This document shows, piece by piece, positions 7,442 through 36,417 of a stretch of DNA of 64,000 nucleotides. Position 1 is the stretch's first letter, and each line of letters opens with the position of its first letter. The position numbers were made by a program, and so were the translations under genes. Below the pieces are notes generated by a model. It worked only from the letters and a program-made list of their open reading frames with translations, did no database searches and had not been told where the DNA came from. Origin of the DNA: Adineta ricciae (lineage: Eukaryota; Rotifera; Eurotatoria; Adinetida; Adinetidae); assembly GCA_905250025.1 (NCBI GenBank), contig CAJNOJ010000287.1, forward strand, positions 1 through 64,000, read 5' to 3'.

Positions 7442-9121
7442 TTAATACAACATAGATTCGGGAATGATGTTTTTCGATGGGTCTAACGATTGGCAAGTCA
7501 TACCTGTTTCCGTAGGATACGGATAATACATAGAAGATAGATGACCGATTTGTTCGTCGGATAGAACATGAAGCGACTCAGTTCTATCGTCACTGTCATT
7601 AGTCAATTGAGATGAATAACTGAAGCCTCGATCGCGCATCCCATCAGTAGATGTGGTTTGTTTAGAGCTGAGAAAGAATTCGTCGTTGAATTCGCTTGGA
7701 TGTTTGATTGGTTCGATCGGTCCAGGTGACAGCTGACTATGTGTTTTACTAAAAATTCCAGTTGGTAAACTTTCTGTGCGAAGTAAACATGAAACAAGTT
7801 GGTTATCTGATGAATCTGTTCGTTGTGATGTATTAAGATTGTCGGTAGCAGGAGATTCTGATGGTTTTGGTTTCTACAAGTAAGAGCAAATATCCAGTGG
7901 CATTCCTTTGTTTGAATCAAAATCGAAGGATTTACTATTTCTGGAATTTCTTCTCTGACGACGTCTAATGTCGGTCCTTCCAGTTCGCTGAGTGATTTTC
8001 CGTGTTTTCGTTGTTCATGAATTTCATTACTAATAAGTTCGAGATTCTTTAATGATTGTTGATACTGAGCTTTGGCTTCTTGGACGCAGTTCTCCAAGCC
8101 GGATACTTTACGTCTTTGAAACTGAAAAGAAAGCTGATAAAATTTCCGACTAATTTCTTTCTCGCCTTACTTCTAATTCTTTGTTGAATTCAACTTTCTT
8201 CTCGTAATACGGTCTATGAATGTAAATCCACCATTCTAATGAAGTGAACATATTCAAATAAATGTCTATACTTTGATTTGTTAATCGATCTTCGCGAATC
8301 TTTTTCTAATTTTTCAACTAACATTTCAATGTCTGCATAGACTCGTTCAGCACGCTGTTGATCATAATCAGCTAAATATTTCTCTCGCTCTGCATCGGCA
8401 GCCTACGAACAAAATATTTTTAATGTATCGAGAAAACGTATCTTTGGACAAACTTTTTCTACAGCTTGTCGATAAGTTTCACCCCATGCTGATGCATTTT
8501 CATTGGACATTCCTGCTCCTGCTTCATCGACATAATCCGCCTATTCGAAACCAGACAGACTCTTCTTTGCATGAAAATGAACTCGATTTAGTCTTACTGA
8601 AATAATGGCTAATTCTTTTGCTGCAACATGCAAGGCTTGTGCGCGTTCGAATCGATGTTTTGCTTTCGTTAATACTTCTCTTGCTTCTCGTAGTCGAATT
8701 CGCGCTTCGTAATAGCTTCGTGCTTTGATCACAGCTGAACCAATGCTTTTCTCCAATTCAGCTAGTTCTTCGTGTGATATTTTCAAAAGTTCTTGCAATG
8801 CTTTTCGTGCTTCCTATATTAATTTGAAATAGAGGACATGAATATTATTTGTTATTCAGTTATTTACATCACGCTGTAGTTCTAAATGGTTGATAGCTTC
8901 GTTCGCATAATTTAATCGATCTAGTTCAATCTGTACGATAGCAAGTGAGATAAATAGATATATGGAGGAGAACTAACTTGAATCCGAGGATCGAGATCTT
9001 CATTAGCTGATGGGCTGGTCACAGCTGGTGATTGAATTTGATTATCTGCTGAGTTATCCATACATAATCTAGAAGACGACAAACGATTGATCGCATTTAA
9101 TATGATTTCTATATTTTCCAA
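7442..9121 (-). CDS. SH3BP5: SH3 domain-binding protein 5 homologue (SAB, Rab11 exchange factor family)
   Basis: Multi-exon coiled-coil protein. Diagnostic stretches in order: DLDPRIQ..ELDRLN near the N-terminus, SYYEARIRLREAR (8700s), the KSKPYFE-type segment region, then ENCVQEAKAQYQQSLKNLEL and ISNEIHEQRK (7980-8090). SH3BP5 proteins form an anti-parallel coiled coil that activates Rab11 by nucleotide exchange; the vertebrate member is also a mitochondrial docking site for JNK. The C-terminal third is low-complexity Ser/Thr-rich, ending ..IPESMLY. Start: ATG at 9121 gives the longest frame. A second in-frame ATG at 9061 lies 7 nt after a TTCTAG acceptor-like site (AG at 9069-9070) and aligns better with the family N-terminus. 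The upstream kinase stop codon ends at 9145, so the two coding regions are separated by only 23-84 nt. Confidence 0.9.
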
Positions 9122-9144
9122 TATACAACAAGAAAAACAATCTA
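9069..9144 (-). promoter_or_regulatory. Short intercistronic spacer with candidate trans-splice acceptor
   Basis: Between the phosphomevalonate kinase stop and a TTCTAG acceptor-like hexamer (AG at 9069-9070) there are only about 76 nt, including a T-rich stretch and an ATTAAA variant poly(A) signal at 9096-9101. The next in-frame ATG is 9061. The arrangement resembles an operon intercistronic region resolved by spliced-leader addition; an ordinary promoter is hard to fit here. Inference only. Confidence 0.4.
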
Positions 9145-10913
9145 TTAAGAATTGATCATATGTATTAAATGACTCATTTGTTGATCAAAACTATCTTCTT
9201 CATTGTTTGTAAAAGTAAATGATCTTTGTACATTCGTATCTAATTGACATTCGGTGTTTGCGGTATCGACAATAGTCCAGCCTCGTTTTTTTCGAACATC
9301 ATCTGATGCTTCGATATATACAAACAATAAACGATCGTAGAAATAGCTTTGAAAATATTCTATTTCTTTCGTGTGCTGAACACCACTGATGATCCATAGT
9401 GGATTCGACGAACAAGATTCATTTTTTTCGTCTAACATCACTCGACAGAAATATGTTGGATCGGCATGGTATTTCTCGTTTGTCCATCTGAAAAGAGTAA
9501 TTATGAGGCAAGCTCTTTCGCAACAAATGAACAAACGTACTGATTTACAGTTGGTTGAGCAGTATCCACACGATCATTTGTCTTTTCATATTCGTGTTGA
9601 CCAGATTCATTAATATTCAGTAGTATGGCAGAGAGTTTTTCTGCCAGTTTTCTTCCAATATAGTTTTTGCCCGATTTGTTTTTACCCAAAAGCAGAACGA
9701 CTTTTTTCACGTGAGAGTATTTCGATAGATCGTTGAGATCAGATCTAGAACGGTGATGATATTACAGAAATTATCATTCGAGACAGACAAGATTCAGTGA
9801 ATTACTTTTTTTCGAAGTCTAAATTGAGTTTTTGTAGAATATGTTTCATAACACGATCACATCGCTCGTGTATGATTAAACTCGCTATAGAATCCATCGA
9901 TGTCTTCTGTAGATTAACAATAACTACTTTTCCACCATTTTTCTTTGTTTTTCGTGGTAAATCCCGACACGGACGGATTTGTAATGACGTTCCCAAACAT
10001 AAACACAGATCTGCTTTGCTGGAAAGAGGAACATAGATAAAATACAAACTTAGATTTCAAAGGTTCAATTTATATAACTTACGCGCAGTGTTGTTCCGAT
10101 AGTTTAAGCGCTGTCTCCGGTAATGCATCTTCCCAGTCGAGGACAGTATCACGTAGTTTCCCGCGACATGACAAGCTTTTATTGCGTCCTTTCATGGAAT
10201 TACAAACATTGCCTGTCCGTTTACGACAATAAGAGCCAACAGCGGTAGGACGGATGACCTAAACAACCAAAATTGTCAAATGAAGAAACATTGTTTTATC
10301 TATAGCAAGTGAGCCTGATCCATGAGTTTTAATCAACGACTGATTTCATTCAACATACCTGCATGTGGCAAACTTCGCATTCTTCCGCAAAAACGTTGCC
10401 ATGTAACTCTGCTAATTTGTCAACTGGTAATCCCGATCGGTGATGCAGTCCATCGATATTTTGACTAATGACGAAATGTAGATAATTGGCTTCTTCCAAT
10501 CGACACAGAGCTCGATGTGTATAAGTTGGTATTGCTTTTTCAAAACTCGTATTGAACGTTGGTTTTTCACCACGTTTTTCCAATGTCCACACACCTGAAA
10601 GGAAACTTTACTTAATGAGTTACATTTTCCTTCGTCGATGAACAATAGCAACCATTAGGTCCTCGAAAATCAGGTATGCCTGCGTCAGTTGATATACCAG
10701 CACCAGTGATGACAACTGTATGATGACTTTGACGAATCATTTGCTCTAATTGATTGAGTTTTGCTATGTAATATAAGTGGGCAATGAATTCAAGTACATG
10801 ACACTGTATTGATATTTACTTTGTAGGTCTTCGACATTTTCAGTTAGTTCGGGCATACCAACTTTGCCTTTGTGAGGAAAGTAAGAGAGACTTTCGGCGT
10901 AGGATAAACTCAT
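9145..10913 (-). CDS. SIRT6-PMVK: SIRT6-like sirtuin fused in frame to phosphomevalonate kinase
   Basis: N-terminal part: [20 protein letters not shown], then [47 protein letters not shown], Zn cysteines [26 protein letters not shown] and [13 protein letters not shown]. This is class IV SIRT6, an NAD-dependent chromatin deacylase/ADP-ribosyltransferase with its catalytic His. C-terminal part: [14 protein letters not shown] (P-loop), [30 protein letters not shown] and TECQLD. This is animal-type phosphomevalonate kinase of the mevalonate pathway. The last SIRT6 exon (9806-10018) ends in phase 2 and the kinase exon (from 9744) supplies the third base, giving [19 protein letters not shown] across a 61-nt GT..AG intron. 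The kinase frame has no ATG of its own: codon 9708-9710 is GTG and an upstream stop closes the frame. The long vertebrate SIRT6 tail is absent. The kinase is about 20 residues short near the phosphomevalonate site. A single fused transcript is inferred. Confidence 0.85.
9745..9805 (-). other. Junction intron between the sirtuin and kinase parts
   Basis: A 61-nt interval starting GTAATT and ending TTCTAG. If it is spliced, the reading frame runs from SIRT6 into the kinase. If it is retained, the codon spanning the donor is followed at once by TAA, so the product is SIRT6 ending EKK. Either outcome is possible from sequence alone. Confidence 0.65.
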
Positions 10914-11291: not shown

Positions 11292-13510
11292 TCAAGTAAA
11301 ATTAGCTAATGACGAACAAGAAAGATATCGTCTAGCTTGCTCTGTCACATGTCGTTGAATAGGAGTTTGACCGATTATAATTTCTTCGTAGGTTGGATCA
11401 TACTAAACGAATAACAGTTAATGATAGTTAGTCATAAAATTCTTTCAATCTTACGCCTAGTTCGTCTTTGAGCTTTGTCGAAGAATGGAACAAGTTCTTC
11501 GCAAGTTTTTCACGTTTTTTCGTTTCAAGAATGGTAGACTGGTATTTATGCAGACGTTTATTCCGTCGCATAATGGTCGGTCGTGTAGATACTTGGGTAT
11601 CCTGAAACATTGTTGTCGTTGTTGTTTGCTGAGGATATGAAAAATAATCACTAAATAATAGAAATTCCGAATTATTCTAGTGTTTTATTCTTGTTAGACA
11701 ACTTACGCGAACCAATCATGTTCTGTAACGTGAATTCGATGTGGCTGAAAAATAAAAGGCATCTATGCTTTTTATCAGAGTAAAGATGAAAATTTTACTT
11801 GATCTAGACGTTCAGGAGTATTAAGAACACGATGTTTGGAAGGCGATGACGTGTTCGAGATCGTTTTGGGAGAGATGACGAGATCTCCTGTTTGCTTCGA
11901 AGAAGTTAATTCAATTAATAAATGCTCCGTTTCGTCTTTGATTTCGTTTTGAGAACTGTAGGTAAAGGAATATGAATTATCTGTAGTAAAGACACTTCGA
12001 TTGTTATGATTTCTCGTTTCTGGTGAAAAGTTCGTTAATTGCGACGATGATTGAGACGATGAAGCAGTAAATGTGGATATTGATGAAGTTTGTGATGAAG
12101 GAAGAGGAGGATAATATGAAAGATTTGGTGGAAATAGAGATAAATGATGATCGGTTTGAGAGTTTTGACTTGAAGTCGTATAATCCGCACAAGATGAGAG
12201 CATAGGTAATTGTTTAGCAGGAGATGGTGGTGTACAATAGAATAAACGTTCGAGATCTTGCGAAGAATTCGATGTTGCTTGGGATGATACGGGCTAAATG
12301 AATTATAAAAGACAAACAATTACACATCCAAATGAACAAGCTTTGATAATATTTTTCTTATGTGATAAACTAATAGAAGAGTTTTAGTCGTACCTGTAAG
12401 TGATCAGAATAAACTGTTGTTAAATGATTGACAGGCGCGACATCAATATTATTGTAATCAGTCGTTGGGAAAAAATGTTGAAGACTATTGTCACTGTTCA
12501 CAATCGGGACAGAAGTTTCAGTTTTAACAGCAGGCATTGATGTAGATAACTGCGCGTGTCCTTTGGAAGATCTTTTGACAGTTGAACGAATCGTTTGATT
12601 AGTAATTGTTGTCAAAGCTGGTCGTGGAGAAGTTGTTTTGTCCAGTTTAGGCCATGAGAAGTCTGATGGAATTCTATAACAGAAAGGATATGATGAGCAA
12701 GACAGTCGATCAGTTTTTTTTTCTTACAATGCAGTCCATTCGAGTCCTTGTTGTTTTAGATTAGTTACTTCCAGTTCGAATTTTTTCTTCATCGAAGAGT
12801 TCCAATGATTTTTTATGGAATTGTCCGACCGACCATTGAAATATTTGGCTATTTCTGCCCATCTATTACCAAAATGTTGATGCAAGACAAATAACAGAAG
12901 ATTTTCATCATTTGTCCAAGGATTTTTATTAATAGCAGGATTGAGATGATTATGCCATCTAAAAGAATACAAACGGATATTACATACTGAAATCATTTTG
13001 ACAGCAGCAAACCTTTCTCGGCATTGTTTCCCCACACGTCCTTTGAGTTCCTTAGCAATCAAACTCCATTGGCGAGCACCATAGTCACGCACGAGTTCGA
13101 TCACTCTTCGATCTTCCTCGTCTGTCCATGGACCTTTCGTAATCGATGGATCGAGAAATCGTTCCCAACGATGTTGACATTGAGCATCGGTACGACCATT
13201 ACCAACATACTGTGAGATACGTGACCAATCTGTTAAACCGCCATTACAATTAATAAAATCTTTCAAGCGTTCATCCTAAACCAATAAAGATTAATAAGAC
13301 AACAACAATTTCCGATTCTTACTTCTTCTTTTGTCCATTTTTTATACGATTTTTTCCTTGATGATGAACTTTTTCTATGAACAAGGATATTCTCATCATG
13401 GTCAGAATCATCGTCTGTGAAACTACTTCGACTACAGCTGGCTCTAGATGACACAAAACAATGGAATTTTTTTGGAAAACAAATCAATTAGCCTACCGTT
13501 GGGAAAGCAT
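11292..13510 (-). CDS. MYB: Three-repeat MYB transcription factor (c-Myb/A-Myb/B-Myb family)
   Basis: Multi-exon. The first exon (MLSQR) begins at ATG 13510 and splices to a Ser/Asp-rich lead-in. Three Myb repeats follow: R1 (KKWTKEE..WSRISQYVGNGRTDAQCQHRW), R2 (KGPWTDEEDRRVIELVRDYG, WSLIAKELKGRVGKQCRER) and R3 (NKNPWTNDENLLLFVLHQHF, WAEIAKYFNGRSDNSIKNHW). Spaced tryptophans are in the expected places, including the first R3 Trp. Animal Myb proteins bind YAACNG sites and control the cell cycle. A long Ser/Thr/Gln-rich region (about 11790-12620) with no clear domain follows, then a short conserved-looking C-terminal block around 11450-11610 with a basic segment. The protein ends ..LSCSSLANFT. 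The upstream gene on the same strand starts about 470 bp away. Confidence 0.92.
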
Positions 13511-13977
13511 TTCAAAAAAAAGGATTCAAGACAACTAAAACAATGCCTTACATCAATGAACGCATGTGCATACAATTGTGATACAATGAACGTTCAATGC
13601 GTGTGAATATCCGTCCGTTCTTTTTCTTTCCTCGTCGGCTATGTTCGAAGCAAATTGAACAAAAGATATAGATGTGCGCGTTCCTTCGCGCGCATACGAT
13701 CAGACAAAGAAACGAAATCACGGATACGGACAATCGAATATCCAACGATGAAGAAGGACAGAAAGAAAAAAAAAGTTGTAACACTTCTTCTATTTTCTCT
13801 ATCGAACGAAACGAATCGATGACTGGCGAGTGTTATATGTGATCGTTGTTTGCGTTTCAATACTGATTTTATTAAGAAAAATAGTTGCAAAAAAATAAGG
13901 TCAAAGAAGAACCGTGCGGAAAAGTTTCTCTCTTATGAAAATAAACGATTGTCCTCAAAAGAAAATGATTGTAGATT
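13511..13977. other. Intergenic region upstream of MYB
   Basis: About 470 bp without a supported gene. It is rich in short A/T runs and carries the MYB upstream region and the 3' UTR of the EF-hand gene. Open frames here (13548-13890, minus strand) are Phe/Ser-rich with no domain and appear to be chance. Confidence 0.5.
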
Positions 13978-36345: not shown

Positions 36346-36417
36346 AGCAGCGTGGCGCAGTGGAAGCGTGCTGGGCTCATAACTCAGAGGTCGGTAGATC
36401 GAAACTACTCGCTGCTA
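36346..36417 (+). tRNA. tRNA-iMet: Initiator tRNA-Met (CAT anticodon)
   Basis: 72 nt. The acceptor stem AGCAGCG pairs with CGCTGCT, then discriminator A. Initiator hallmarks: first pair A1:T72, B-box region GATCGAAAC with A at position 54 in place of T, and a G-rich anticodon stem around CTCATAA. The A box reads TGGCGCAGTGGAAGCG. The stem pairing to the usual GGG/CCC has one G:T pair (GGG/CTC). A T-rich pol III terminator begins about 6 nt downstream. No intron. Confidence 0.95.

Follow-up and report, generated by a model that had tools for sequence, protein, structure and literature searches.

Introduction

SIRT6 is a class IV sirtuin, represented here by the human structures 3zg6 and 5x16. 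H133 was taken to be its catalytic histidine, and C141, C144, C166 and C178 were presumed to be its zinc cysteines. Phosphomevalonate kinase (PMVK) of animals is described by the curated equivalog TIGR01223 and by the human structure 3ch4. According to one report, residues 17–23 of PMVK are necessary and their mutant lacks metabolic activity; in the same report, the contacts of a modelled inhibitor are given as K17, S20, G21, K22, D23, R73 and R141 (PMC10131864). Another report assigns R141 a part in the binding of ATP (PMC4823745). Moreover, a single 23-nt spliced leader has been described as common to two bdelloid species, in which more than half of the transcripts carry it (PMC1925144).

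The gene examined here lies in the window, i.e., the 64,000-nucleotide stretch of Adineta ricciae DNA that was analysed, and joins the two families. Its product differs from SIRT6 in that a kinase-derived domain of approximately 180 residues stands where the tail would follow the sirtuin core, and it differs from animal PMVK in being fused. The author of the initial annotation knew of no description of such a fusion, and none was found among the titles and abstract openings of the literature on sirtuin–PMVK fusion, rotifer sirtuin fusions, rotifer PMVK and bdelloid fusions, a search whose scope took in little of the subscription literature. The fused protein is already in public databases, where it is listed under generic names.

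Results

Structure of the Fused Gene

The fused SIRT6–PMVK gene was located on the minus strand of the window at 10913–9145, exactly where the initial annotation had placed it, and comprised seven predicted exons joined at GT-AG signals. Exon 1 (10913–10820), with its ATG at 10913 and a product that matched human SIRT6 from residue 1, was followed by exon 2 (10763–10653), exon 3 (10594–10359), exon 4 (10258–10083) and exon 5 (10018–9806), which completed the SIRT6 half. The presumed catalytic histidine, the zinc cysteines and the end of the sirtuin core were encoded by exons 3–5 (9806..10594). Exon 5 ended in phase 2 at the junction intron (9745..9805, minus strand, 61 nt, GTAATT...TTCTAG, phase 2). 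The PMVK-derived half was formed by exon 6 (9744–9541), which carried the P-loop GKNKSGKN and had no ATG, and exon 7 (9487–9145), which ended with the stop codon TAA at 9147–9145. All six introns were of the GT-AG type and measured 53–100 nt. The coding sequence had 1,377 bases including the stop and gave 458 residues, and this predicted product matched the deposited A. ricciae protein P0001 from end to end with 100% identity.

The base missing from exon 5 was given by exon 6, and the frame stayed open across the junction intron; the phase, the supplied base and the intron length reported earlier were all reproduced in the spliced model. Retention of the junction intron would end SIRT6 at EKK-TAA, the TAA (9804–9802) being within the splice donor. 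In the kinase frame, no ATG was found between the upstream stop (9762–9764) and the P-loop, as the initial annotation had claimed. For the kinase intron (9540–9488), GTACGT at 9540 was the donor that kept the frame, and a nearby GTAAAT was rejected. The repeats surrounding the fused gene and the Rfam RNA families in the window contained nothing bearing on the join. The only hit in the window that reached the Rfam gathering score was a tRNA gene at 36346–36417 (plus strand).

Occurrence of the Join in Bdelloids

The search of rotifer relatives proposed in the initial annotation was carried out with the joined protein. Among the best 120 of 7,351 matches (8,000 candidates scored), 10 homologues spanned the join, and no fusion was found outside bdelloids. 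Five were full-length fused proteins with both Pfam domains, namely, those of A. ricciae, A. vaga (81% identity to the A. ricciae protein), R. magnacalcarata (71%), Rotaria sp. Silwood1 (71%) and Didymodactylos carnosus (53%). The fused protein of R. sordida was N-terminally partial, and four further database frames of 263–278 residues (three from the source jgi and one from ncbi/lgn/ena) also spanned the join. A. steineri was represented by a stand-alone PMVK only (P0123), with no fused sequence among the same best 120 of 7,351. A separate search with the kinase region returned 2 of 229 candidates and missed known fused relatives; its sensitivity was therefore low.

We infer from similarity and from the tree that the four further frames are bdelloid. 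They started in apparent intron sequence before the last SIRT6 exon and continued to the kinase end; their join was free of stops, left no space for an intron and lacked a linker methionine. Because these frames were uninterrupted across the join, the single reading frame held independently of splicing models, and an operon mis-annotated as one gene was unlikely. The linker methionine was absent from nine of the ten fused sequences. The linker of D. carnosus was longer and held a methionine, and this sequence may represent either an active fusion or two neighbouring genes that annotation has merged. In the nine copies with eroded kinases, the frame was open to a common C-terminal end, and many residues were shared, including the P-loop. 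The single SIRT6–PMVK reading frame of the initial annotation was thus borne out, and the join is not a product of chance because other bdelloid proteins carry it. Judged from these sequences, a true gene fusion encoding a single polypeptide is very likely.

SIRT6 Half

Residues 1–274 of the fused protein matched human SIRT6 from end to end (E 6.6e-89), and the sirtuin core was closest to SIRT6 among the solved sirtuins (302 bits, versus 153 for SIRT7). As a control for the losses in the kinase half, conservation was evaluated with 19 stand-alone SIRT6s from the 110 homologues that did not span the join and with five of the 10 that did. The A. ricciae protein retained 74 of the 78 positions that were invariant in the stand-alone set, and the numbers lost in the five full-length fused proteins were 4, 4, 4, 5 and 3. 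H133, C141, C144, C166 and C178 were among the invariant positions and were retained in all five. The SIRT6 half is most likely a SIRT6-type NAD-dependent deacylase, as predicted from this conservation.

Further SIRT6/7-class genes were present in the A. ricciae genome. Those on the contig pairs C122/C176 and C212/C73 had 41–44% identity to the fused gene; when one copy per pair was compared with solved structures, SIRT6 was the best match, far weaker than for the fused gene. A copy on C5 matched SIRT7 best, and other sirtuin-like copies had identities to the fused gene of 41–42% (C103/C37) and 28% (C144). Given these genes, the fused gene is not claimed to be the sole SIRT6 of the genome. Divergent SIRT6-class genes were located at C212:149976-150557, C212:173249-173848, C73:388695-389246 and C73:414879-415427, with 41–43% identity to the fused SIRT6; the comparison with solved structures covered two of these four.

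Kinase Half

The likeness of the kinase half to animal PMVK extended along its whole length (E 1.4e-13 against human 3ch4), with the Pfam domain PF04275 at residues 297–394 scoring 39.6 bits, above the gathering cut-off of 33.8. However, it scored 70.1 bits against TIGR01223 and failed the cut-off of 188.15, which the stand-alone PMVK of the same genome (P0121) passed with 189.8 bits. The reference for conservation consisted of 19 stand-alone PMVKs (4 bdelloid and 15 others) from 44 matches; the other 25 were fragments, near-duplicates or sequences left out by choice, and all nine eroded copies and that of D. carnosus were kept. The A. ricciae kinase half kept 17 of the 33 positions invariant in the reference and lost 16, among them D23, K69, R73, R84, R110 and R111 (human numbering). 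The losses amounted to 16 in A. vaga, 15 in R. magnacalcarata, 13 in Silwood1, 12 in R. sordida and 11, 13, 9 and 11 in the four further frames, and to only 2 in D. carnosus.

Fifteen positions (basic residues and D23, in human numbering and mapped through sequence alignments) were examined separately, the list being largely our own assumption of which residues are functional. A. ricciae kept 6 of them, so that 9 were changed; the eight other eroded copies kept 6–11, D. carnosus 14 and the 19 stand-alone proteins 14–15. The eroded frame with the most positions kept (P0017, 11 of 15) could retain some kinase activity. R18, K69, R84 and R111 were gone from all nine eroded kinases. K17, K19, R138 and R141 were retained in all nine and K22 in eight, and D23 was retained in six, being lost in both Adineta species and in R. 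magnacalcarata. The P-loop was kept in outline in all ten fused sequences. With the active-site residues assigned to either the ATP or the substrate, an assignment that we partly presume, the pattern suggests that the fused kinase may still hold nucleotide, much of the rest of its active site being lost.

In the AlphaFold model of the A. ricciae fused protein, both halves were confident (mean pLDDT 86.9), and the kinase half was modelled as folded, with most blocks above a pLDDT of 78. The alignment of the fused protein by VIA-align gave only sirtuins among the 50 matches listed; the fold of the kinase half is predicted from sequence homology and pLDDT.

In the tree, the nine eroded fused kinases formed one clade (support 100/100). 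Their closest relatives were the bdelloid stand-alone PMVKs, which were weakly grouped (44/54). The D. carnosus kinase was placed, weakly (89/83), outside the group of fused and stand-alone proteins, and two alternative placements were compatible with the data (AU p 0.19 and 0.18). Because this placement was loose, a fusion before the duplication and one after it are both possible.

Stand-Alone PMVK and the Matching Region

An intact PMVK of 196 residues with its own ATG was found on two similar contigs of the A. ricciae genome, C26 and C34; the two copies differed at 16 of 591 bases (dN 0.009, dS 0.108). The four bdelloid stand-alone PMVKs (P0121 of A. ricciae, P0122 of Rotaria sp. Silwood2, P0123 of A. 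steineri and P0124 of R. magnacalcarata) differed from the fused kinase in having their own ATG and all 15 functional positions. Both kinds of protein were present in A. ricciae and R. magnacalcarata. The initial annotation had counted a separate kinase with its own ATG as evidence against the fusion. Such a gene exists at another locus; the fusion stands, and the metabolic role proposed for it is weakened.

Like the fused gene, the PMVK on C26/C34 lay downstream of Myb and upstream of SH3BP5, with gene order and strand unchanged, and its intron was identical in position and phase to the kinase intron at 9540–9488. In contrast to the fused kinase, no SIRT6 adjoined it, and no SIRT6 remnant was found between Myb and SH3BP5 on these contigs (best E 3.1). 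From gene order and divergence, we infer that C26/C34 and the fused region (C287) are homoeologues. A search of the assembly for a near-identical second copy of C287 around the fused gene found none. The fused and stand-alone kinases were compared by dN because dS was saturated; dN between the two regions was 0.41 for the kinase, 0.16 for one Myb exon and 0.20 for one SH3BP5 exon, the second Myb exon being left out because it contained TGA.

Neighbouring Genes and Spliced Leader

Downstream of the fused gene was an SH3BP5-like gene (7550..9061, minus strand; far end approximate), with its ATG at 9061, an acceptor AG at 9070–9069 and Pfam SH3BP5 on 8544–8813. Upstream was a Myb-domain gene, whose conserved part was located at 12156..13647 (minus strand; gene ends approximate), with Pfam Myb on 12727–13275. 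Both were colinear on C26/C34. The distance from the PMVK stop to the end of the SH3BP5 acceptor was 24 nt on C26/C34 and about 76 nt in the window (9061–9147). The 24-nt gap is too narrow to contain a promoter and points to an operon; this closeness and the conserved start suggest a bdelloid operon. The first PMVK exon started with AG followed by ATC in both regions. The start of SH3BP5, AG followed by ATTATG, was conserved between the window and C26/C34 (L024 and L025).

A 23-nt query that we took to be the spliced leader matched the A. ricciae genome at 46 sites with at most three mismatches (41 of them with one), and the reversed control matched at 0. In all eight loci that were read, the leader-like exon was followed by gtaa, as expected of a leader exon. 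These exons with gtaa were clustered (L036–L043; C6, C8, C43, C77, C79, C99 and C146), often as inverted pairs approximately 150 nt apart, and the clusters are probably spliced-leader RNA genes. The leader sequence contained no ATG. In a two-cistron operon, a start codon of the downstream cistron would follow the trans-splice acceptor, and the kinase frame had none there.

Discussion

The analysis makes it likely that the fused protein is a SIRT6 deacylase in which a PMVK-derived pseudo-enzyme domain has replaced the C-terminal tail and which arose, perhaps from operon neighbours, via duplication. Prior to the genome duplication of bdelloids, SIRT6 and PMVK would have lain side by side, probably as members of a single spliced-leader operon; the chances that an old SIRT6–PMVK–SH3BP5 operon was the origin appear about even. 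In one duplicate region, SIRT6 would have been retained and become joined to PMVK, and the other would have kept PMVK and lost SIRT6. The spacer with the PMVK trans-splice acceptor perhaps became the cis intron, the donor of which overlaps the SIRT6 stop. Because four fused relatives are intronless at the join, this origin of the intron is not unique, and a gain of the intron in Adineta is as possible. The fused kinase, free of pathway duty, would then have lost many active-site residues, with the P-loop lysines and R138/R141 staying in place. It would now be a pseudo-enzyme that may still bind nucleotide and whose effect on SIRT6 would be regulation, stabilisation or tethering. Such a domain probably serves regulation or stability rather than isoprenoid synthesis, and a more specific role as a nucleotide-binding regulatory domain is proposed tentatively, being somewhat doubtful.

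The same open frame might be read as two cistrons of a spliced-leader operon joined by annotators, with SIRT6 ending at EKK and the kinase trans-spliced at 9744. The use of a 23-nt leader by bdelloids (PMC1925144), the leader-like genomic sites with none in the reversed control, the 24-nt spacing on C26/C34 and the TAA within the donor at the join all agree with this reading. Nevertheless, neither the kinase frame upstream of the P-loop nor the leader offers an ATG, the frame is uninterrupted in four relatives, and nine of the ten fused sequences lack a linker methionine. An operon alone was rejected mainly on the uninterrupted frames and the want of an available ATG, and it appears extremely improbable. 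The initial annotation had proposed an active bifunctional enzyme, in which SIRT6 and a working PMVK would link NAD and chromatin control to isoprenoid synthesis. Such an enzyme would fit D. carnosus, in which 14 of the 15 functional positions are intact, and the P-loop outline in all fused sequences. This proposal did not hold against the A. ricciae losses (9 of 15 functional and 16 of 33 invariant positions), the TIGR01223 score of 70.1 against 188.15 and the intact stand-alone PMVK beside the fused one in A. ricciae and R. magnacalcarata; it is very improbable, and in Adineta the fused kinase is highly likely not to be a working phosphomevalonate kinase.

A further possibility is that the kinase remnant is a passive tail, translated with SIRT6, tolerated or serving as a folding aid, and decaying without a regulatory role. 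When the two A. ricciae regions are compared, the kinase half evolves faster than the flanking exons (dN as given above). Between A. ricciae and R. magnacalcarata it is 54% identical, the SIRT6 half reaching 86% and the stand-alone PMVK 75%. However, a decaying tail is at odds with the common C-terminal end, open frame and many shared residues, including the P-loop, of the nine eroded copies and with the folded model of the A. ricciae kinase half, and we consider it unlikely.

A more far-reaching proposal, speculative and rather unlikely, is that the collapse of an operon gave bdelloids a new regulatory SIRT6, in which a nucleotide-binding pseudo-enzyme tunes the NAD-dependent deacylase to the energy or phospho-metabolite state, possibly in connection with desiccation or DNA repair. 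The locus would offer an example, open to testing, of the origin of a domain architecture, in which adjacent genes passed through genome duplication, the parts were divided, fusion followed and the chemistry was lost. Furthermore, a lineage in which the SIRT6 tail has been swapped for a small domain predicted to be folded would provide a natural SIRT6 variant to test.
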